Source: Spirochaetales bacterium
Lineage (GTDB): Bacteria > Spirochaetota > Spirochaetia > Treponematales > UBA12059
Reading direction: 5' to 3'
DNA: 10,768 bases
NCBI GenBank assembly: GCA_004525355.1
Contig: SPCK01000038.1
Span: 1-10,768 of the forward strand
The position numbers and the translations under genes are program-made. Positions 14 through 10,768 of this stretch are shown here, one piece after another (positions within the stretch are counted from its first letter, which is position 1; each line of letters begins with the position of its first letter). The notes beneath the pieces were generated by a model, which was not told the DNA's origin, did no database searches, and saw only the letters and a list, made by a program, of their open reading frames with translations.

Positions 14-34
14 GTTACCCGTTACTCGTTACTC
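14..34. repeat. Three tandem 7-bp units over the stop codon of the HU-fusion gene
   Basis: The units are GTTACCC, GTTACTC and GTTACTC. Each carries TTA, which is TAA on the minus strand, at 29-31, 22-24 and 15-17. Because the unit is 7 bp, the three stops fall in three different frames just after the end of the HU-fusion gene. The first of them is the real stop. The array is directly visible but short, so it may be chance or simple slippage. Confidence 0.5.
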
Positions 35-922
35 GTCATCCTCCTCGTCCTCGTCCCCGCTTGACAGGAAGGTAGGATCGACACTGGCACATTTTTCCTT
101 GACCGCCTGGGAGAAATTGAATTTGGGGACCATGGTTGCCGCTTTGGCGTTCACCAGGAGATCCTCGCCCGTCTTGAGGTTCTTGACGATCCTCGCCTTG
201 CGCGCAGCCTGGTAGCGAAGGAACGTGCTTCCGAGTTTCCCGACGGAAACCCGCTCGCCAAGCAGCATACCGGTCTCGATCATGGACAGGTAATCTTCAA
301 TGATACCGCGGACCAATATCTGGGTGGCGCCGTTTTTACGCGCGACGTAGTTGATGATGGCCTTGGCGGTAAATTGGTCCACCTCATCGGCGCCTTCGAG
401 CGTGAGGGTCCGATTCAGCTTGATGAAACCGTTCGTCAGGTAAACAGTCGCCTCGCGCACGCGGCGCTCCTGCTCGTCGGGACTGATACCGGCGGGACAG
501 ATGGCGATTCGATACAGGGAAGACGATCGCTTGAGCGGCGATCCGTCGAAGGAGGCGACCACATCCACCTTGGCAGCGGCCAGGAGGTTGACCTTGTCAC
601 CCCGTACCAACTGGGGTACGTCAGCCCTCAGCTTTATCGATGCGTATTCCAGCCAGCGGTCCCTGCCCCGACGAGGGCCCAGGCTTATCAGCGAGCCTGA
701 ATAGGTGAGGAATATGGCCGCGCGCGCATCGTCCGGTTCCATCAGGTCTATTGATTCCATTCCCAAGGCGGCGGTCTGGGCCGAAAACAGCCGGTATTTC
801 TCAAGCCATATGGCAGCAAGCCGTTCCCTTGCCTGTTCGTCACCAGCCTTGCCTGCGTCGGACAGAAGAGCGTCAAGTTGTAGCCGTATCTGCGGCGGAA
901 GTCCTTCAATCGGATTCTGCAT
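29..922 (-). CDS. Unrecognised N-terminal domain fused to an HU/IHF-like DNA-binding domain, acidic tail
   Basis: This 297-residue protein is probably cytoplasmic and nucleoid-associated, since no signal peptide or membrane segment is seen. Residues 1-175 form a domain I do not recognise; it is shared with the divergent neighbour at 1048 (matching blocks LTYSGSLISLGP, EYASIKLRADVP and FIKLNRTL). Residues about 183-277 resemble HU/IHF: two helices, then VSVGKLGSTFLRYQAARKAR, a beta-arm with KNLKTGEDL, and a closing VPKFNFSQAVKE. In HU the arm tip reads RNPxTG with a DNA-intercalating proline; here it reads KNLKTG, with Leu249 in that place. The last residues, DEDEEDDE, form an acidic tail. The start is ATG at 922 because GGAGG lies 8 bases upstream; a TTG seven codons earlier has no such site. 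The HU call is by eye from motif order, with no structure or search behind it. DNA binding is inferred. Confidence 0.72.
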   Translation of the reverse strand: MQNPIEGLPPQIRLQLDALLSDAGKAGDEQARERLAAIWLEKYRLFSAQTAALGMESIDLMEPDDARAAIFLTYSGSLISLGPRRGRDRWLEYASIKLRADVPQLVRGDKVNLLAAAKVDVVASFDGSPLKRSSSLYRIAICPAGISPDEQERRVREATVYLTNGFIKLNRTLTLEGADEVDQFTAKAIINYVARKNGATQILVRGIIEDYLSMIETGMLLGERVSVGKLGSTFLRYQAARKARIVKNLKTGEDLLVNAKAATMVPKFNFSQAVKEKCASVDPTFLSSGDEDEEDDE

Positions 923-930
923 GATCGTTG

Positions 931-935
931 CCTCC
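931..935 (-). promoter_or_regulatory. Shine-Dalgarno that fixes the start of the HU-fusion gene
   Basis: On the minus strand this reads GGAGG, 8 bases before ATG at 922-920. It lies inside the longer frame that would begin with TTG at 943, so it argues for the shorter protein. Confidence 0.75.
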
Positions 936-1035
936 GAACTCAATATAACCCATTTTTGACCAATTTTGCAATTTTTATTTTTTTTCCGCGTTATTCCATT
1001 GATAATTCGATTGGTATGGTAGTATTCTTCAAGAC
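936..1035. promoter_or_regulatory. AT-rich divergent promoter region between the two paralogues
   Basis: This spacer is markedly AT-rich compared with its surroundings and has a long T-rich tract at about 969-985. On the minus strand TTGCAA (971-966) is 18 bases from TATATT (947-942), a possible sigma70-type promoter. It would start transcription almost at the Shine-Dalgarno, so it may not be the real one. On the plus strand TTGATA (999-1004) is followed 15 bases later by TAGTAT (1020-1025), a weak match. The assignment as a divergent promoter region rests mainly on gene layout and base composition. The individual boxes are guesses. Confidence 0.45.
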
Positions 1036-1041
1036 AGGAGG
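1036..1041 (+). promoter_or_regulatory. Strong Shine-Dalgarno of the HU-less paralogue
   Basis: AGGAGG lies 6 bases before ATG at 1048. It is a near-perfect ribosome binding site and supports that start. Confidence 0.85.
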
Positions 1042-1047
1042 ATTGCC

Positions 1048-1572
1048 ATGAACGCTTTCGATTCTCTGAGCCCCGAAATCCAGGATCACCTCAGGCAGAT
1101 AGCAAAAACATCCGGCCTGGCGCCAACCGAGGACAGCCATGAGCGCATGGCGGCCGCATGGCTCGAAAAGCTGGACATCTTCGAGAAGGCCGTGAAGGAT
1201 AACAAGCTCGTGGAGGTTGCCTTCTTCGGGCGGGCCGAGGAACGGGGGGCACTGGTACTCACGTTCTCTGGCTCACTGCTCAATGTAGGACCGTTGGTCG
1301 ACGGTGCGCGTCGCTGCGAGTACGCCTCCATCGGTATGCGCGCCGACGTGCCACCCACGGCTACTGACGAATCCTCCGAGCTGGCCGCCGATCTTGAGTT
1401 GGAGGAACCCGCCCAATTCGTCAAAGGACCGATCAAGACCAGTTCGCCACTCTACAAGATAGCCGTTGCCAAGGATGAACTCGAACCGAACGATGAAGAA
1501 GCGCTCTTGACACAGGTCACCCAGGAGCTCGCCGAGGATTTTATCGAAGTCAACAAGACGCTCATTGGTTAA
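1048..1572 (+). CDS. Stand-alone copy of the unrecognised domain, paralogue of the HU-fusion protein
   Basis: This 174-residue soluble protein belongs to no family I recognise. It aligns along its whole length with residues 1-175 of the divergent HU-fusion protein. Shared landmarks are AAAWLEK versus AAIWLEK near residue 36, LTFSGSLLNVGP (71-82), EYASIGMRADVP (91-102), TSSPLYKIAV (131-140) and a C-terminal FIEVNKTL versus FIKLNRTL. It ends exactly where the HU part begins in the other protein, so it looks like a complete single-domain protein and not a broken fusion. It is acidic, with a DE-rich stretch at about 107-120. It is the first gene of the plus-strand run, 18 bases ahead of the phosphoesterase gene and in the same frame. 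Its role is unknown; dimerisation with the HU-fusion protein through the shared domain is a reasonable guess. Confidence 0.8.
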   Translation: MNAFDSLSPEIQDHLRQIAKTSGLAPTEDSHERMAAAWLEKLDIFEKAVKDNKLVEVAFFGRAEERGALVLTFSGSLLNVGPLVDGARRCEYASIGMRADVPPTATDESSELAADLELEEPAQFVKGPIKTSSPLYKIAVAKDELEPNDEEALLTQVTQELAEDFIEVNKTLIG

Positions 1573-1590: not shown

Positions 1591-2607
1591 ATGTCTCTTC
1601 GCGACTCGATCGTACGCGCCTTTCTCAGGGAGAAGCCGCCTCCCGCCGGCGAATACCAAGCGCTGGCGGAAGCGGCGACAGCGGTTCTTTCCGGCGAGCC
1701 TGCGGCGATACGCCCCGTGGACGCTCGCGACCTACCCGGGGGTATCGTTCGGCTGGACCCGGATCTGCCGACGATAATCGTGCCGGACCTACATGCCAGG
1801 ACGGGTTTCTTCCTGAGCCTGATGGAAAGCCCATTGCCCGGTGGCGCGACCGTCAGCAATGCCCTGGCAGCCGGTGAACTGCAGATGTTGTGCCTGGGTG
1901 ATGGGTTCCATGCCGAATCGAGGGCTATCGATCGATGGCGATCGGCTTATGACGAGTTCATCGATGGCTATACGGATTCGCCTGCCATGGACAGGGAAAT
2001 GGCCGAGAGCATGGGCTTGATGGAAATGGTCATGCTTTCCAAACTGGCCTTTCCCGACCGGTTCCACTTCCTCAAGGGGAATCACGAGAATGTCCTCAAC
2101 GAGGAAGGTAACGGCAATCACGCATTCAGGAAATTCGTGCTCGAGGGGGAAATGGTCGCCACATATCTGTCCCGGTTCTACGGCGAGGCCTTCATGGAAC
2201 GGTATGCAGCCTTTGAACGGAACCTGCCCCTGTTCGCGATTGGCTCGCGCTTCCTCGCATCCCACGCGGAACCCGAGCGTCCCTATTCAGAGTCCGAACT
2301 CGTAAACGCCCGCCTGGATCCCGACGTCGTGCTCGGGCTCACCTGGACGGACAACGGCGCGGCGGAACCCGGGTCCGTATTCGCCCTGCTGTCACGGTTC
2401 CTGCCCGATCTGGAGCGACCGCGTTACTTTACCGGTCACCGTACCATATCCGGCCTGTACCGCGAGCGCTCCGGAGGGTATCATCTACAGATACACAATC
2501 CAGGGAAATACGTCGTGGCCTGGGCGATGCCGGACAGGGATATAGAGCCCGATCTGGACATCGGTGAAATTAGAGATATTAGCGGCCGCGTCGCCGCAGG
2601 CCGTTGA
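1591..2607 (+). CDS. PPP-type metallophosphoesterase (calcineurin-like), variant motifs
   Basis: This 338-residue protein lacks a signal peptide or membrane segment. The order of metal-binding motifs matches the calcineurin-like PPP superfamily: PDLHAR at 65-70 (usual GDxHG; Asp66 and His68 kept), LGDGFHAE at 102-109 (usual GDxVDRG; Asp104 kept, the DRG part lost), LKGNHE at 161-166, SHAEP at 224-228 and TGHR at 281-284. All expected metal ligands are present, so it is probably an active phosphatase or phosphodiesterase. The loss of the DRG arginine suggests an altered substrate pocket. The kinase gene begins 14 bases downstream, so protein dephosphorylation opposing that kinase is the natural reading, though the substrate is not shown by the sequence. 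No good Shine-Dalgarno precedes ATG 1591, which may mean translational coupling to the gene upstream. The next upstream in-frame codon of note is that gene's stop. Confidence 0.85.
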   Translation: MSLRDSIVRAFLREKPPPAGEYQALAEAATAVLSGEPAAIRPVDARDLPGGIVRLDPDLPTIIVPDLHARTGFFLSLMESPLPGGATVSNALAAGELQMLCLGDGFHAESRAIDRWRSAYDEFIDGYTDSPAMDREMAESMGLMEMVMLSKLAFPDRFHFLKGNHENVLNEEGNGNHAFRKFVLEGEMVATYLSRFYGEAFMERYAAFERNLPLFAIGSRFLASHAEPERPYSESELVNARLDPDVVLGLTWTDNGAAEPGSVFALLSRFLPDLERPRYFTGHRTISGLYRERSGGYHLQIHNPGKYVVAWAMPDRDIEPDLDIGEIRDISGRVAAGR

Positions 2608-2610
2608 TTG

Positions 2611-2615
2611 AGGAG
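2611..2615 (+). promoter_or_regulatory. Shine-Dalgarno that fixes the kinase start
   Basis: AGGAG sits 6 bases before ATG 2622. A TTG at 2604 would add six residues and overlap the phosphoesterase stop, but it has no ribosome site, so 2622 is preferred. Confidence 0.75.
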
Positions 2616-2621
2616 TCCCGT

Positions 2622-4232
<1,611 letters not shown>

Positions 4233-4376: not shown

Positions 4377-4431
4377 CAATTGATACGCGGGGCACGGCAT
4401 GCACGCCGCCAGCGAACATCCTGCACCTGAT

Positions 4432-4437
4432 AAGGAG
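4432..4437 (+). promoter_or_regulatory. Shine-Dalgarno that fixes a GTG start
   Basis: AAGGAG lies 6 bases before GTG 4444. The longer frame from ATG 4399 lacks a comparable site and would add a polar 15-residue leader, so GTG 4444 is preferred. Confidence 0.75.
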
Positions 4438-4443
4438 CTTATC

Positions 4444-5337
4444 GTGTCGTTGACCCTGAAACGAATCTTCATGGCAGTATTTGGTTTGCTCGGCGCCCTT
4501 GCCCTGTGGCCCTGCCTGCTCACGCTGCAATTCCTCCAGCCGCGATTCCCCGGCTATCTGGTATTTACCTTGGCCCAAGGCATGGTTCTCGGGCTTGTGT
4601 TCGGCGCCTTCTTCGGTTCCTTCGAGGGCGTGGTGGTTTCCTCCCGCCCCAAGGCGTTCAAGGGATTTGCCTTCGGAGCCGTATTCGGAGCCTTGGCAGG
4701 AGCCGTCGGCGTGCTGGGCGGGCAATTCTTCCTGTTCGCGGCCGGGTCAATCATGTGGCGTAGCGCCAGCGCCCGTAACTCGGTCGGCCTGGCCGTCGCA
4801 GGAGGATTGGCATGGACCATTGTGGGGCTGTTTCTGGCCTTGATCGAGGGAGTCCGCGCCCGTTCTTCCCGAAAGCTCCTGGTAGGTCTGGCTGGAGGAG
4901 CCATCGGCGGGCTGGCCGGAGGGACCGCCCTTTCCGCCCTTTCATACTTCTACCCCGATGAGCCACTGTCACTCCTGGCCGGGCTATTGTTGTTCGGCCT
5001 GCTCCTCGGCGGTTTCTATTCGCTCTTCGAAAACCGTTTCTCCTCAGGGGCGCTTATGCTCTTGAATGGGCCGCTGAAAGGCAAGGAATACTACATACTG
5101 AGCAAGAAGATGCGCATCGGCTCGGCGGCTGACTGCGATATCGTGCTCAAGGGCTATCCGGAGGTCGAGGTCCTTCATGCCACCGTGTACCTGAGAGACG
5201 GCAAGGTTTTCATAGAGCAGGAAAAACCTTCTGCCCGACTGCTCCTGAACGACGAACCGCCGGCCGGCCGGTCACTCAGGCCCGAAGACGTACTTGCCGT
5301 AGGCAAGGCAAAATTCATTTATGGCTACTTCTCCTAG
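4444..5337 (+). CDS. Polytopic membrane protein with C-terminal FHA-like domain
   Basis: This 297-residue protein has about six hydrophobic, glycine- and alanine-rich segments (roughly 8-30, 39-58, 74-98, 113-133, 144-168 and 174-192), followed by a soluble domain at about 203-297. That domain matches the FHA pattern: MRIGSAADCDIVL at 223-235, LHATVYL at 244-250, then LLLNDEPPAGRSL and an EDVLAVGKAKFIYGY ending. In a standard FHA domain the first motif reads IGR and the second SRxH; here the Arg is Ser227 and the Ser-Arg pair is absent, with only His245 kept. Phosphothreonine binding is therefore doubtful. With an even number of helices, both ends would be cytoplasmic, placing the FHA-like domain on the same side as the kinase. 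The vWA/FHA gene starts 15 bases downstream. I do not recognise the membrane part. Confidence 0.82.
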   Translation: MSLTLKRIFMAVFGLLGALALWPCLLTLQFLQPRFPGYLVFTLAQGMVLGLVFGAFFGSFEGVVVSSRPKAFKGFAFGAVFGALAGAVGVLGGQFFLFAAGSIMWRSASARNSVGLAVAGGLAWTIVGLFLALIEGVRARSSRKLLVGLAGGAIGGLAGGTALSALSYFYPDEPLSLLAGLLLFGLLLGGFYSLFENRFSSGALMLLNGPLKGKEYYILSKKMRIGSAADCDIVLKGYPEVEVLHATVYLRDGKVFIEQEKPSARLLLNDEPPAGRSLRPEDVLAVGKAKFIYGYFS

Positions 5338-5352
5338 CAGAAGGACGGAACC

Positions 5353-6804
5353 ATGCGTACCATCAAATATACGATATTCATGCTACTGACCCTCGCAGCC
5401 GCGATCAGCGCCCAGGCCCAGGGGCTTTCCATTACACAGATAGGAACCGAGCGCCTGTTGTCCTTCCAGGAAACGCGGCTGTACCTGTCCGCGCCGGCAC
5501 TCGGGTTTCCCAGTGATATCGAAAGCGGCGGAATTCGGGTATTTGAATCCGGAGACGGCATCGACTTCCAGTCCAGGCCGATTAAACGCATATCCCTGAA
5601 CCCCAACGCCGAGGAAGGCATATCGTTCTTTCTGTTGGTGGACAACTCCGGCAGCATGTGGACGGACATGGCCGGGAAGGAAAGCGGCAACCGTGCGGAT
5701 CTTCGCGTCGAACAAGCCAAATACGCGGCCAAAGCCTTCCTGTCCAGGCTTGGTCCCCGGGACAGGGTCGGCCTGGCAGTATTCAATACACGATACTGGA
5801 ACGCCGCGCTACCGGGCGCAGCTCCCGAAGAAGTCTCCCGCGCGCTCGACGAACTGAGCCGTCCCGTATCCGAGGACGCCTATACGGAACTCTACCTGTC
5901 CATGGAACGCGCCTTGCAGGATTTTTCCTCCGAACCCGGGAGACGGGTACTGATCGTGCTTTCGGACGGCGAGAATTTCCCGTACGCCCTTACCACGGGC
6001 AAGCCCAACCCGGAGACGGGCCTGCGCAGCGCCGTGCCAGCCGATGTAATCGACTCCGCCGTGCGCGACGGCGTAAGCATATACGCTGTACGCCTCGGAG
6101 ACGTCAGGGATCCCCTGCTCGGCACGGTTGCGGCCGAGTCCGGCGGTCGTTCCTTCGACGCGATGGACGGCGAGGAACTTTCCGGCATCTATGACGGCAT
6201 CCGACGCGACGTGTTGGCCGAGATCGCGGTGGATTACCAAGCCGGCATGGATCGCGGTGAGAAACGCTGGGTTCGCACGATTGTACTGGGTGCCGATGGC
6301 CGGGACTACGTGGCGACGCGCCATTACTATGCGGGAACGGTACTCGGGCAGAACGCCGCGGAACCCAAGGGTTATTACGTACTCTTCATCCTGGTAGCCG
6401 TCCTGTTCTGGCTTGCCTTGGTGCTCTTCAAGCTCGAGCGGGAAACCGACCAAGCCGGGCTCCGCCTCCTGTTCTCTTCCAAGGGACAACCAACGCGTTT
6501 CTTCGCGCTCGCCGGCCAACAGACGGTCATCGGCGCGGCTCCCAACGCTGACGTCAGCATCGTTGGGAATCCTTCACTGAAAGCCTCGCACGCAACGATA
6601 CTCTTCGACGAGGGCAGGAATGCGTACACCGTAGTATCCGATGCGCCGATTACCGTAAACAACCAGACTGTTACCAAGCGGCGACTTGAATCAGGGGACG
6701 TGATAAACATGGCCGGCACAGTCGTGGTATTCGACGAAACCCTCGCGAAGGTCACGAAAAAAAAGAAAACCCCGGCAGGCGGCCGCAAGAAGAAAAAATC
6801 CTGA
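5353..6804 (+). CDS. Secreted and membrane-anchored vWA protein with cytoplasmic FHA-like domain
   Basis: This is a 483-residue protein with a clear order of parts. A signal peptide covers 1-22 (positive start, hydrophobic core, AQA before the likely cut). A von Willebrand A domain at about 90-287 has a complete metal site: DNSGS at 97-101, Thr178 in AYTELY, and Asp205 in LSDGEN. A beta-rich stretch leads to a membrane helix (about 341-360). A C-terminal FHA-like domain (about 382-462) holds TVIGAAPNADVSI and ASHATI, and a lysine-rich tail ends the protein. The usual FHA Arg is Ala395 here and the usual Ser is missing. The topology puts the vWA domain in the periplasm and the FHA-like domain in the cytoplasm, so it could pass information across the membrane. 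AAGGA 7 bases before the ATG supports the start. It is last in the plus-strand run. Bat-type aerotolerance proteins were considered, but they lack this FHA tail. Confidence 0.88.
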   Translation: MRTIKYTIFMLLTLAAAISAQAQGLSITQIGTERLLSFQETRLYLSAPALGFPSDIESGGIRVFESGDGIDFQSRPIKRISLNPNAEEGISFFLLVDNSGSMWTDMAGKESGNRADLRVEQAKYAAKAFLSRLGPRDRVGLAVFNTRYWNAALPGAAPEEVSRALDELSRPVSEDAYTELYLSMERALQDFSSEPGRRVLIVLSDGENFPYALTTGKPNPETGLRSAVPADVIDSAVRDGVSIYAVRLGDVRDPLLGTVAAESGGRSFDAMDGEELSGIYDGIRRDVLAEIAVDYQAGMDRGEKRWVRTIVLGADGRDYVATRHYYAGTVLGQNAAEPKGYYVLFILVAVLFWLALVLFKLERETDQAGLRLLFSSKGQPTRFFALAGQQTVIGAAPNADVSIVGNPSLKASHATILFDEGRNAYTVVSDAPITVNNQTVTKRRLESGDVINMAGTVVVFDETLAKVTKKKKTPAGGRKKKKS

Positions 6805-7146: not shown

Positions 7147-8331
7147 TCAGCGCTTGGCCTTCCTGGTGTACACGTCGAAGATGACCGCTGCGGCCAGGAC
7201 AGCGCCGCGAACGATATACTGCGAGGAAATGTCCGTACCCATGAGATTCATTCCGCTGGTCAACGACATGTACACGATGGCACCTACCAGGGATCCAGTC
7301 ACCTTGCCTACACCGCCCGCCGCGGAGACGCCGCCGATATACGCGGCAGCGATGGCGTCCAGCTCGAAAAGCGTGCCCGCGGTAGTCGTCGCGGATTGCA
7401 GGCGGGACGCGAACAAAATGCCCGAGAGTCCGGCCAGCATGCCCATGGAGCCGAATACCATCAAGGTTATCTTCTTGACGCTTATACCGGAGAGCTCCGC
7501 CGCTTCCGGATTTCCGCCTACCGCGTAGATGTGGCGGCCGAGCACCGTCTGCTGGGTTATGAAATCGTACAGGACCACGACGAACAGCACGATGACGATG
7601 GTCCACGACAGGCCGTTGTAGCCAGCCAGGTTCCAGGTGATGAGCAGCAGCAGCACCGAGATGAACACAAGCTTGATAATGAATACGCCCTTTGGCAGAA
7701 CCTCGAAATCGTAGGCTATCTTGCTCTTGCGGTCCCGAACGGACCTGAACAGGAACCAGATATTGACAATGATTCCCAGGAGGAGGGTCAGTTTGTGCAT
7801 GCCGTCGAATATTTCGATTTCCGGGAAGATATCGGGAATATAACCGTTTCCTATCGCGTTGAAGACATTGTCCGTAATGATGATGGTGCCCGTCTTGAGC
7901 GTTACCATCAGGAGGGCGCCGCGGTAGATCAGCCAGCCGGCCAGGGAAGCCACGAACGACGGTATGCCGAGCTTGGCCACGAGAAGACCGGTGGCCAAAC
8001 CTGCCAGCACGCCCAAGCCAAGTACCAAGGGAATCGCGATGCCGACCGGGAGTCCCCAGGACGTCATGGCAATAGCTGCGACGGCACCGAGGAACCCCGC
8101 CAGGAAGCCGACCGATAAGTCTATATGCCTGATGACGATGACCAGGGTCATGCCGATGGCGAGTACGGCGATATAGCCCGTCTGGTTCATCAGGTTGGAT
8201 ATATTGCGCGAGGAAATGAAAATGCCCTGGGTCATGACCGTGAAAAAGGCCATGATGACAAAGAGGGCGATGTACATACCGTAATCACGGATGTTGTGGC
8301 GCAGGGTCTTGCGCAGATCGGCGATGATCAT
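7147..8331 (-). CDS. gguB: Sugar ABC transporter permease, GguB/XylH type
   Basis: This 394-residue inner-membrane protein belongs to the branched-chain/ribose-type permease family (BPD_transp_2). It forms the channel for monosaccharide import. Many hydrophobic helices are visible (for example 18-36, 53-68, 76-90, 97-119, 181-196, 218-235, 241-257, 289-308 and 345-360). The conserved cytoplasmic coupling region reads IYAVGGNPEAAELSGI (268-283), and the family motif around DAIAAAYIGGVSAAGGVG (325-342) is intact. The length is normal for GguB or XylH. AGGAGG on the minus strand, 8 bases before the ATG, supports the start. It follows the ATPase gene by 21 bases and precedes the terminator, so it is the last gene of the operon. 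GguB is preferred over XylH because of the ChvE-like binding protein in the same operon; the two families are close. Confidence 0.93.
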   Translation of the reverse strand: MIIADLRKTLRHNIRDYGMYIALFVIMAFFTVMTQGIFISSRNISNLMNQTGYIAVLAIGMTLVIVIRHIDLSVGFLAGFLGAVAAIAMTSWGLPVGIAIPLVLGLGVLAGLATGLLVAKLGIPSFVASLAGWLIYRGALLMVTLKTGTIIITDNVFNAIGNGYIPDIFPEIEIFDGMHKLTLLLGIIVNIWFLFRSVRDRKSKIAYDFEVLPKGVFIIKLVFISVLLLLITWNLAGYNGLSWTIVIVLFVVVLYDFITQQTVLGRHIYAVGGNPEAAELSGISVKKITLMVFGSMGMLAGLSGILFASRLQSATTTAGTLFELDAIAAAYIGGVSAAGGVGKVTGSLVGAIVYMSLTSGMNLMGTDISSQYIVRGAVLAAAVIFDVYTRKAKR

Positions 8332-8352
8332 AGACTGTTCCTCCTGATTCCT

Positions 8353-9873
8353 TTACATCGTTGCCAGGCGCATGACCGATTCCTGGTCCGCTTCAGCGGC
8401 AGACACTTCTCCGGTTATGCGTCCCTGCGAAACCACGTACACCCTGTCGCTCATTCCAAGGACTTCGGGTAATTCAGACGAAATCATGATGATGCTCATG
8501 CCTTGTGCGACCAAATCGTTCATTATCATGTAGATTTCATATTTTGCGCCGACATCGATTCCACGGGTGGGCTCATCGAGGATCAGGACCCGCGGATTGA
8601 CGTACAGCCACTTGGCGATGGATACCTTTTGCTGGTTACCGCCGCTCAAGTTCAATACCTTCTGGTCAATGCTCGGCGTCTTGATGCGCAAAGCGTCCCT
8701 GTATTTATTGGCTACCTTGATCTCGGCATTGTCGTCGATGGTTCCGCGCCGGCTGAGCGCCTTGAGGTTTGCCAGCGTGATATTCTCCTTCACGTCCTGG
8801 ATGAGGACCAATCCGTTGCCCTTTCTGTCCTCCGAGGCGTATGCCAAACCGGCCTTGATCGCGTCTTTGGGCGACTGGAACCGCATGGCCTGACCGCCGA
8901 CGAACACTTCGCCGCTCGTCTTGTACTCGTCGGGGTTTCCGAACAGGCTTCGCGCCAGCTCGGTCCTGCCTGAACCCATGAGGCCTGCGAAACCGACGAT
9001 CTCTCCCTTGGCGACCTTGAATGAAATATCCTTGAGCACTGCCCTGCCGAGCGTTTGGTCCCAGGCATTCCAGCCCCGCGCTTCAAACACCACCTCGCTA
9101 GACCGCTCGTGTTTGCGCTTGGGAAATACATCGTCAATTTCTCGCCCGACCATGTGCTTGATGAGCACCGGTTCGGTCACCGCGCCCTCCGTGGCTGAAA
9201 GCGTGCATATAGTCTCGCCGTCGCGAAGCACGGTTACCGTGTCCGCGATACGGATTACTTCCTTGAGCTTGTGGGAAATCATGATGGACGTAACGCCCTG
9301 GCGCTTGAGGTCCTTCAGGATATCCAGGAGATTGTCGCAATCGGCTTCATTGAGCGCCGCCGTCGGTTCATCAAGGATGAGGAGTTTGACATCGCGGGAC
9401 AATGCCTTGGCTATCTCGACGAGCTGCTGCTTCCCGACGCCCAGGTCCTTGACCCTCGTTGCCGGTTCCACGTCAAGGTTGACGCGCGCGAGCATCTCCT
9501 TGGCGCGTTTGAGAGTCTCGTTCCAGTCGATACTGATGCCCTTGGTGATTTCATTTCCGAGGAGAATGTTCTCGAATACCGTCATCTCGGGAACCAGGGC
9601 AAGTTCCTGGTAAATGATGGCGATGCCGACCTTCTCGCTGTCGGCGATGTTTCTGAACCTTTGCGGGATGCCGTCGAGCAGTATCTCGCCACTGAAATCC
9701 CCGTGGGGATACACGCCGCTCAGGACTTTCATGAGCGTCGACTTGCCGGCGCCATTCTCTCCGACCAGGCAGTGTATCTCTCCCCTGGCTACGCCGAAGC
9801 TTACCTCCGACAATGCCTTGACGCCGGGAAAGGTCTTGGTAATGGATCTCATCTCCAGGATGGGTTTGTTCAT
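8353..9873 (-). CDS. gguA: Sugar ABC transporter ATP-binding protein with two nucleotide-binding domains, GguA/XylG type
   Basis: This 506-residue cytoplasmic ATPase energises sugar uptake. The first domain has Walker A GENGAGKST (38-46), Q-loop YQE (88-90), signature region GVGKQQLVEI (145-154) and Walker B LLILDEP (164-170). The second has the degenerate P-loop GLMGSGRTE (297-305; Arg303 replaces Lys, as is usual in this family), signature LSGGNQQ (409-415) and Walker B VLILDEP (429-435). The second site is probably the weaker hydrolysing one, as in the ribose and xylose transporters. The start is ATG 9873, preceded by GGAGG; ATG at 9894 would add seven residues and has no ribosome site upstream. 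The N-terminus then reads MNKPILEMRSITKTFPGVKA, which is typical of the family. Sugar preference cannot be read from this subunit. Confidence 0.94.
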   Translation of the reverse strand: MNKPILEMRSITKTFPGVKALSEVSFGVARGEIHCLVGENGAGKSTLMKVLSGVYPHGDFSGEILLDGIPQRFRNIADSEKVGIAIIYQELALVPEMTVFENILLGNEITKGISIDWNETLKRAKEMLARVNLDVEPATRVKDLGVGKQQLVEIAKALSRDVKLLILDEPTAALNEADCDNLLDILKDLKRQGVTSIMISHKLKEVIRIADTVTVLRDGETICTLSATEGAVTEPVLIKHMVGREIDDVFPKRKHERSSEVVFEARGWNAWDQTLGRAVLKDISFKVAKGEIVGFAGLMGSGRTELARSLFGNPDEYKTSGEVFVGGQAMRFQSPKDAIKAGLAYASEDRKGNGLVLIQDVKENITLANLKALSRRGTIDDNAEIKVANKYRDALRIKTPSIDQKVLNLSGGNQQKVSIAKWLYVNPRVLILDEPTRGIDVGAKYEIYMIMNDLVAQGMSIIMISSELPEVLGMSDRVYVVSQGRITGEVSAAEADQESVMRLATM

Positions 9874-9883
9874 AGTATCCCGG

Positions 9884-9888
9884 CCTCC
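9884..9888 (-). promoter_or_regulatory. Shine-Dalgarno that fixes the ATPase start
   Basis: GGAGG on the minus strand lies 10 bases before ATG 9873. It falls within the longer frame beginning at 9894, arguing for the inner start. The spacing is slightly long. Confidence 0.6.
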
Positions 9889-9999
9889 ATTCATTCATAG
9901 GCAGAAGGGAGCCGGATGGCCCCGATCCGCAAATCATGCAACTGCAACAAACGCTCGGTATCACGTCATATCGGTACGACAAGTACCCAACAATACCGT

Positions 10000-10022
10000 A
10001 GAAAGGATAATGAATCCTTTCT
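10000..10022 (-). repeat. Stem-loop, 9-bp perfect arms
   Basis: AGAAAGGAT (10000-10008) and ATCCTTTCT (10014-10022) are exact complements around a 5-base loop. It is the third main hairpin downstream of the binding-protein gene. No U-tract follows on the minus strand. Confidence 0.65.
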
Positions 10023-10031
10023 GCCATGGCA

Positions 10032-10061
10032 ACGCCGGCAAACCAAATGGCCTACCGGCGT
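10032..10061 (-). repeat. Stem-loop, 7-bp perfect arms
   Basis: ACGCCGG (10032-10038) and CCGGCGT (10055-10061) are complementary with a 16-base loop. It is the second hairpin downstream of the binding-protein gene. Confidence 0.5.
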
Positions 10062-10075
10062 CTCCTCAAGCAATT

Positions 10076-10110
10076 GGCCGCACGGCGTTCGACTGACGCG
10101 CCATACGGCC
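10076..10110 (-). repeat. Strong 3' hairpin 12 bases after the binding-protein stop
   Basis: In minus-strand RNA GGCCGUAUGGCG (10110-10099) pairs with CGCCGUGCGGCC (10087-10076) in a continuous 12-bp stem with two G-U pairs and an 11-base loop. AAUUGC follows, not a U-tract. The position just past the stop codon fits an mRNA 3'-protecting structure or a leaky terminator. Confidence 0.65.
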
Positions 10111-10122
10111 TTTCATCATTTC

Positions 10123-10768
10123 TTACTGTAGGCCGGAGAAGTACGACGAAGGATAGTAGCCGGAATCCACGATGGCGGCTTTCACGTTGTCCTTGGTTAC
10201 GGTGGTGATGGCGGAGGGCTTGGCCGGCACATCGATCTTGCCGTTGTTGTAGGTCGTCGTCTTCGCGGGAGCGCCACCCTTGAGATAGGCGATGGCGGCC
10301 GCGATGGCATCGTTCACGAGGACGCGGACATCCTTGAGAACGGTCATGGACTGCTTGCCGTCGATGATGTACTGGACAGATGCGACCTCGGCATCCTGGC
10401 CAGTGATGTAATAGGTCTTGACCCTGCGATCGGCACGGAAGACGTCGGCGATGGCTCGGGCGGTACCGTCGTTCGGGGCGCAGATGTACACGGTGCCCTT
10501 CATTGAGGTGGTGGCCTTGGTCAGGTCGGCTTCAGCCTTGTTCTTGGCAAAGGAGAAGTCCCAGTTGGTGGTGACCTGTCCGATGATCTTGCCGAGCTGC
10601 TCGCGGCTCAGTTTCGCGGTCTTGGAGAGGGCAACGGCCTCGGCGGAATTGCGCACGATGAACGTACCGTCGGCGATCTTGGGCTGGAGCACGCTCCACG
10701 CGCCATCGAAGAAGATGAAGGCGTTGTTGTCGGACGCGGCGCCCGCGTACAGGTACAGGTTGTTGCCC
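10123..10768 (-). CDS. chvE: Sugar-binding periplasmic protein, ChvE type, C-terminal 214 residues
   Basis: This is the extracytoplasmic receptor of the importer. The N-terminus, including any signal or lipoprotein peptide, lies beyond the right edge; the frame is open to the last base, beginning GNNLYLYAGAASDNNAFIFF. Segments typical of ChvE-like multiple-sugar receptors are present: NNAFIFFDGAW, ICAPNDGTARAIAD, YYITGQDAEVASVQYIIDGK followed by QSMTVLKDVR, and a C-terminal DSGYY. ChvE of Agrobacterium is known to bind several aldoses (galactose, glucose, arabinose, xylose) and sugar acids, so a broad range is possible here, but the ligand cannot be settled from half the protein. It is the first of the three genes in the visible operon. 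The internal GTG at 10692 is not a start; similarity continues upstream of it. Confidence 0.92.
   Translation of the reverse strand, partial: GNNLYLYAGAASDNNAFIFFDGAWSVLQPKIADGTFIVRNSAEAVALSKTAKLSREQLGKIIGQVTTNWDFSFAKNKAEADLTKATTSMKGTVYICAPNDGTARAIADVFRADRRVKTYYITGQDAEVASVQYIIDGKQSMTVLKDVRVLVNDAIAAAIAYLKGGAPAKTTTYNNGKIDVPAKPSAITTVTKDNVKAAIVDSGYYPSSYFSGLQ

Follow-up and report, generated by a model that had tools for sequence, protein, structure and literature searches.

The window, the whole 10,768-nucleotide stretch of DNA analysed here, contains an old pair of paralogues in which one domain occurs joined to an HU/IHF part, within a single clade of such fusions, and also in separate, mostly acidic stand-alone copies. 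The stand-alone gene usually heads a same-strand row encoding a metallophosphatase, a Ser/Thr kinase, a membrane FHA protein and a vWA-FHA protein, and the fusion gene usually lies divergently from it. Judged from the sequences, our tentative best explanation, to which we give slightly less than an even chance, is a spirochaetal phospho-signalling locus in which the HU fusion would be the DNA-facing end and the acidic copy would either pair with it or compete against it. The features of the window are collected in Table 1.

Table 1. Features of the window, with positions counted from its first nucleotide.
Feature	Position	Strand	Remarks
Fusion gene	29..922	(-)	297 aa with ATG 922 as start; shared domain at the N terminus, then a short linker, the HU/IHF domain and an acidic tail
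HU/IHF domain (PF00216) of fusion	89..370	(-)	Leu at intercalating-proline position
Shared domain of fusion	395..922	(-)	Predicted helix-helix-8 strands-long helix; matched by no described family
Divergent intergenic region, AT-rich	923..1047	.	125 bp, 36% GC
T-tract/TTGATAATTC block	977..1008	.	Common to some relatives; abuts promoter-like -35 (999)
Stand-alone copy of shared domain	1048..1572	(+)	174 aa, net charge -16, computed pI 4.4
Calcineurin-like metallophosphatase	1591..2607	(+)	Metal-site motifs conserved in relatives
Hanks-type Ser/Thr kinase	2604..4232	(+)	Full catalytic motifs; TM segment and start codon ATG 2622 (both by eye); C-terminal part
Gly-rich protein ending in an FHA-like domain, multi-TM by eye	4399..5337	(+)	
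Protein with vWA and FHA-like domains and TM between them (by eye)	5353..6804	(+)	

The paralogue pair and its two parts

The divergent paralogues of the original prediction, with a domain present once alone and once fused to HU, are both encoded at the positions given, and BLASTP aligns them with 59/171 identical residues (35%), 0 gaps, 102 bits and an E-value of 2e-31. Their local alignment score is 261, compared with a mean of 32.6 (sd 5.0, maximum 57) in 2000 shuffles of the stand-alone sequence. Since the 171-residue alignment contains no gaps and scores far above the shuffles, both proteins carry one continuous homologous domain. The predicted extent of about 170 residues thus holds, whereas the five or more separate blocks into which the likeness had been divided do not. 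The shared domain comprises about 176 residues. In the numbering of the 304-aa ORF its alignment with the stand-alone protein stops at fusion residue 180 and the HU match starts at 192, so the stand-alone copy indeed ends at the domain border. This longest fusion ORF (29-943, minus strand) has its first start, a TTG, at 943, which is an unlikely translation start; ATG 922 is the likely one because GGAGG lies 8 bases upstream (by eye) and the database entry P0072 has 297 aa. Hence the fusion is 297 aa long and the intergenic gap (923-1047) measures 125 bp.

PF00216 matches residues 192-285 of the 304-aa ORF at 40 bits against a cut-off of 22.4 (E 4.7e-10, profile positions 2-89 of 90), and the stand-alone protein matches nothing in Pfam or NCBIfam at E<=1, in line with the claim that only the minus-strand protein has an HU part. 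At E<=0.01 a profile of the fusion matched 34 distinct PDB sequences, whose names are those of HU, IHF or related histone-like proteins. The predicted model of the fusion (mean pLDDT 85.8) retrieved HU structures with Foldseek, the best being 1p71_A (E 5.3e-06, TM 0.76 on the target). Together with the above-cut-off PF00216 score, this supports the HU-like fold anticipated for the C-terminal part. In HU/IHF proteins a proline at the tip of the beta-arm inserts into DNA, although this residue is not universal in the family. At the corresponding position the 53 fusion rows hold Pro (21), Leu (20), Ile (10) or Phe (2), with Leu 256 in the window, and the beta-arm residue R251 is invariant (53/53). 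Given the HU match, the HU-like predicted fold and the invariant R251, and allowing for the varying intercalating position, the fusion likely binds DNA. The genome from which the window derives holds a second HU-family match that lacks the shared domain (G000:C229:15590-15847, locus L095), so that this genome already has a general HU.

The stand-alone protein is predicted to fold into a helical hairpin followed by eight strands and, at the C terminus, a long helix (mean pLDDT 91.1, pTM 0.87). That its domain belongs to no described family agrees with the absence of any profile match in the Pfam and NCBIfam libraries searched. A Pfam scan of 54 diverse members returned 8 families with one member each (best E 0.0027) and no family common to the members. 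The shared domain matched no PDB sequence, and the fold search with its predicted structure gave no clear match to a solved fold and none to a known sensor. Conservation is pronounced at particular residues. In stand-alone numbering, W38, K41, T72, S74, G75, S76, R88, Y92, S94, R98, D100, V101, P102 and S133 are kept in at least 56/59 fusion and at least 52/53 stand-alone rows, and F165 and N169 in at least 56/59 fusion and 52/52 stand-alone rows. Nine residues (K41, S74, G75, S76, R88, Y92, R98, D100 and S133) are each found in 59/59 fusion rows and in 52 or 53 of the 53 stand-alone rows.

The two copies differ consistently in charge. In all 37 named loci with rows for both proteins, some of which are close relatives and not independent, the stand-alone protein has a lower net charge than its fusion partner, both in total and along the predicted C-terminal helix. 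The domains in the window carry -16 (stand-alone) versus +1 (fusion), and the medians are -19 (n=53) versus -5 (n=58). For the C-terminal helix the medians are -6 in the stand-alone copies, 51/53 being negative, versus +1 in the fusions, where 36/58 are positive and 9 negative. Here the fusions keep Q158 (58/59), R161 (59/59), R163 (55/59) and N171 (57/59), while the stand-alone copies mostly have E150 (41/52) and E163 (35/52) and are otherwise variable. The 37/37 result lends support to a pair of unlike partners. As far as charge can indicate, the contrast would fit mutual attraction between the two proteins, or a decoy in competition with DNA.

Distribution and history of the pair

Homology searches at E<=0.001 yielded 71 matches with the stand-alone query, 344 with the fusion query and 112 with a profile. 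Where an organism was given among the matches listed (the best 120 of 344 for the fusion query), the name was that of a spirochaete, of a member of the Magnetospirillaceae (P0042, P0117) or, for P0009, simply "bacterium". We collected 63 loci in named genome contigs using one peptide pattern, by which divergent relatives can be missed; 62 have spirochaete names and one (L056) is labelled Neomarinimicrobiota. Presence within the phylum is patchy, as 47/392 sampled genomes have any copy; for the window's own family the figure is 7/12 listed. Each of the six single-contig genomes with any copy holds both a fusion and a stand-alone gene, at separate places in G130 and G349; the HU part was confirmed in five of them and G203 was judged by ORF length. 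Over 291 aa the fusion of Spirochaeta thermophila DSM 6578 (P0154) shows 100% identity to that of L007, a locus in which stand-alone, phosphatase and kinase genes lie next to the fusion gene. A plasmid search with the fusion and a phage search with the stand-alone protein gave no match, and a mobile-element reading was dropped.

For the phylogenetic tree, 163 locus domain rows passed a length filter of 140 residues, the window copies having been dropped. The 120 rows from L032 on were taken (L003-L031 were left out), two identical rows were removed and two window rows were added, again giving 120. Of these, 58 fusions fall into one starred clade, joined by one apparent stand-alone row, L070_N_1, which may itself be a fusion because the row is cut by the contig end. 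Fifty stand-alone rows are grouped with weak support (80/81, drawn open). Outside the main groups are three long-branched stand-alone rows, six distant short proteins (type II) and two proteins with another C-terminal part, all in placements that are unsure on account of their long branches. Across 4 groups the labels change 4 times, one more than the minimum of 3, and on its simplest reading the tree would imply a single old duplication and a single fusion to HU.

Over 36 loci, the distances among fusion domains correlate with those among stand-alone domains (r 0.85; partial r 0.51 given the kinase; 0/1000 permutations as high). The partial values for fusion and kinase (0.44) and for stand-alone protein and kinase (0.41) are nearly as strong, so the correlation mostly reflects shared history. 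Median pairwise domain identity across these loci is 41% for the fusions and 48% for the stand-alone copies.

Some loci show other architectures. In L106:4942-5964 and L113:5153-6103, the HU part is replaced by another C-terminal part of about 115 residues that looks alike in both by eye. At L098:5092-7023, an HU gene (99 aa) and then the gene for an HU protein of 374 aa come after a distant stand-alone copy of type II. By eye, this longer protein seems to have a membrane segment and a stretch resembling LysM; Pfam found no LysM in it at E<=0.01. This split arrangement again links the shared domain with HU.

Gene neighbourhood and intergenic region

A recognised fusion is present in 53 of the 63 named loci and a stand-alone gene in 48. 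Where there is room upstream, the stand-alone gene has a divergent fusion partner in 35/42 loci, including the partner in L070 that is cut by the contig end. The original prediction had a kinase and a phosphatase directly beside the pair. In the window, a phosphatase-like and then a kinase gene follow the stand-alone gene, and the survey of neighbourhoods extends this co-occurrence to relatives: among loci with room, the same strand downstream of the stand-alone gene carries a kinase in 40/43 (best phmmer match to the window kinase at E<=1e-5), a phosphatase in 32/43 and FHA-type genes in 37/43.

The exceptions are of several kinds. The divergent fusion is absent from L052, L055, L056, L057, L078, L079 and L080, the kinase from L073, L076 and L078, and in 8/43 (L046, L047, L048, L050, L051, L052, L055, L070) a kinase is present with no phosphatase beside the stand-alone gene. 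In L079 and L080 the fusion gene is convergent with the row and lies at its distal end. L055 and L085 are labelled as the same isolate, as are L052 and L086, and in both cases the fusion is on another contig than the stand-alone gene. In 15/63 named loci a fusion was found with no stand-alone gene in the available stretch, which may be too short to tell. FHA genes also occur outside the kinase row: they directly flank the fusion in L081, L082 and L083, lie next to one gene of the pair in L079 and L080, and are divergent from stand-alone copies in L073, L076, L078 and L104. Those of L073 and L104 were scanned by Pfam and also carry a LuxR-type HTH (GerE); in L076, L078 and L080 the FHA assignment is by similarity only. 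As several of these nine loci are close relatives, they represent perhaps only three separate arrangements. A neighbour cluster (c1) considered as all FHA was rejected, as the 10 members scanned comprised 6 FHA and 4 GGDEF proteins.

Further neighbours were noted. In L087, L089, L090 and L105, fusions without the kinase genes have diguanylate cyclase (GGDEF) genes in their vicinity. L043:7136-10026 contains a second kinase and phosphatase pair beside the first, in opposite orientation. In the window itself, 7147-10767 on the minus strand encodes an ABC transporter, presumably of the sugar type, consisting of a permease, a double ATPase and a partial periplasmic binding protein.

Catalytic motifs are conserved in both enzymes of the row. 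The catalytic Lys, Glu, HRDxKxxN, DFG and activation-loop Thr of the kinase are conserved in at least 90% of 47 aligned ORFs over 250 aa, among them that of the window. Calcineurin-like (PPP) phosphatases hold their metals through DxH, GD, GNHE, H and GH, and these motifs are conserved in at least 90% of 35 aligned ORFs; PF00149 scores 14 bits on the window phosphatase, below its cut-off of 21.5. The two large neighbours score 25.4 and 27.9 bits with PF00498 (FHA), above the cut-off of 20.7. FHA domains that read phospho-threonine have an Arg after the first Gly, a Ser three before the His, and an Asn. The vWA-FHA proteins keep the Asn and have the Arg in 2/34 and the Ser in 2/34, and the Gly-rich membrane proteins keep the Asn and have the Ser in 3/30, while in 29/30 the residues listed include no Arg. 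The lack of the canonical Arg and Ser from most of these domains counts against a simple scheme in which the kinase marks and the FHA domain reads; judging by these residues, the FHA domains of both membrane proteins may instead be scaffolds.

The intergenic region has one promoter-like site on each strand; positions 1-2700 contain 2 such sites, with 1.3 expected by chance. Many of 31 intergenic regions compared lack the T-tract/TTGATAATTC block. A motif search used 16 of the 31, picked by eye for likeness and with kinship ignored, and an intergenic alignment used 4. Kinship being ignored throughout, the real sets scored 266, 243 and 406 (12 restarts) versus 176-189, 125-147 and 239-254 in five block shuffles each (4 restarts). 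With up to 3 mismatches, the block pattern occurs at 4 places in the window's own genome (that of the window with 1 mismatch, the others with 3) versus 1 in a reversed control. A regulon defined by this block was rejected, these matches revealing no repeated site, and the conserved block could be ordinary promoter sequence.

Possible functions of the locus

In the explanation we tentatively favour, the fusion would dimerise through its HU part and bend DNA. The stand-alone copy would pair with the shared domain of the fusion or compete for it and, being strongly acidic, could weaken or redirect DNA binding. By modifying either the shared domain or the stand-alone protein, the kinase and phosphatase would determine this balance, so that a membrane or periplasmic signal would alter transcription or the structure of the nucleoid, probably also at the divergent promoter that separates the two genes. 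A bolder form of this proposal, which the sequences make possible and which we consider on balance doubtful, is a dedicated pathway in which the membrane kinase and phosphatase would control a chromosome-bending protein through the new domain, joined to HU in one protein and free as an acidic decoy in the other.

Several other explanations have to be weighed. The nine near-invariant residues could be the putative site of a ligand- or phosphate-binding sensor, with the fusion and the stand-alone protein as separate outputs that never pair. Their conservation in both groups speaks for such a sensor, as do the diguanylate cyclase genes near the fusions of the four loci named above, but the fold search gave no clear match to a known sensor and the consistent charge difference would be left unexplained; we regard it as unlikely. 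The divergent layout and the T-tract block beside a promoter-like site would also suit a fusion that is mainly a local repressor or architect of the divergent promoter, with the stand-alone protein as antagonist or co-factor and the kinase acting elsewhere. However, the fusion lies away from the stand-alone gene in L079, L080, L085 (with L055), L086 (with L052), G130 and G349, and the block is absent from many intergenic regions, which makes this quite improbable.

We give little credence to a general nucleoid protein with an acidic DNA-mimic or chaperone and no phospho-control. The HU fold and the acidic stand-alone copy are what it would lead one to expect, yet the linkage with kinase and FHA genes is repeated and the genome already has another HU match. 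Finally, the neighbourhood might have been inherited by linkage, with pair and kinase functionally unrelated. Kinase distances do follow the same history as the pair, but the linkage persists at the low median domain identities reported above and other FHA genes recur beside the shared domain, so that this seems very improbable.

The locus we favour combines known and apparently new elements. HU fusions and kinase-FHA loci are already known; neither the shared domain nor the fused/free pair nor their joint locus turned up in the libraries and literature searched. PknH-EmbR is a known kinase-FHA-transcription factor pair and resembles this locus in linking a Ser/Thr kinase with FHA and a DNA-binding output (putative here), but here the output is of the HU type and the FHA parts reside on separate proteins, mostly without the Arg. 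The fusion shares with HU/IHF proteins (PF00216) the fold, the invariant beta-arm Arg and a score above the Pfam cut-off. It differs by the preceding domain of about 176 residues, by the Leu in place of the intercalating Pro in the window, and by a conserved paralogue that has no HU part. HU-HIG and HU-CCDC81 proteins (PF18291, PF18175), which are mostly from Bacteroidetes, likewise join HU to other domains; the fusion has a different partner domain and scores 13 bits with PF18291, below the cut-off of 26.2.

Treponema denticola TDE_2259, another HU-family protein of a spirochaete to which an uncharacterised part is joined, has an N-terminal HU-like part (PF14848) and a C-terminal PF14734 (PMC12724145). 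The order of the parts is reversed in our fusion, whose added domain has no Pfam match. A 2017 HU survey describes one clade with long N-terminal extensions averaging 40 residues (PMC5683647). Our literature search did not find the architecture of shared domain plus HU with a free copy; mention in a 2017 HU/IHF superfamily paper is possible.

Phosphorylated histone-like proteins offer a further parallel. A phospho-mimic at Thr37 of Deinococcus radiodurans HU changed DNA binding (PMC9900698), which makes phospho-control of the HU fusion plausible, and phosphorylation of Mycobacterium tuberculosis HupB is mentioned in another paper (PMC9599588). Such modification is only proposed for the fusion. 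In contrast to these proteins, the fusion has a dedicated locus and an acidic partner, and the position equivalent to Thr37 is Lys or Arg in 49/53 fusion rows (hand alignment).

To our knowledge, the route from membrane Ser/Thr kinases to the bacterial chromosome is largely open. The conserved and compact gene set described here offers a testable kinase-to-chromosome route, with a new domain and an apparently built-in acidic partner, and S. thermophila DSM 6578 is a named strain that carries the fusion. If the dedicated pathway were true, it would be a two-part switch coupling envelope signals directly to nucleoid architecture.
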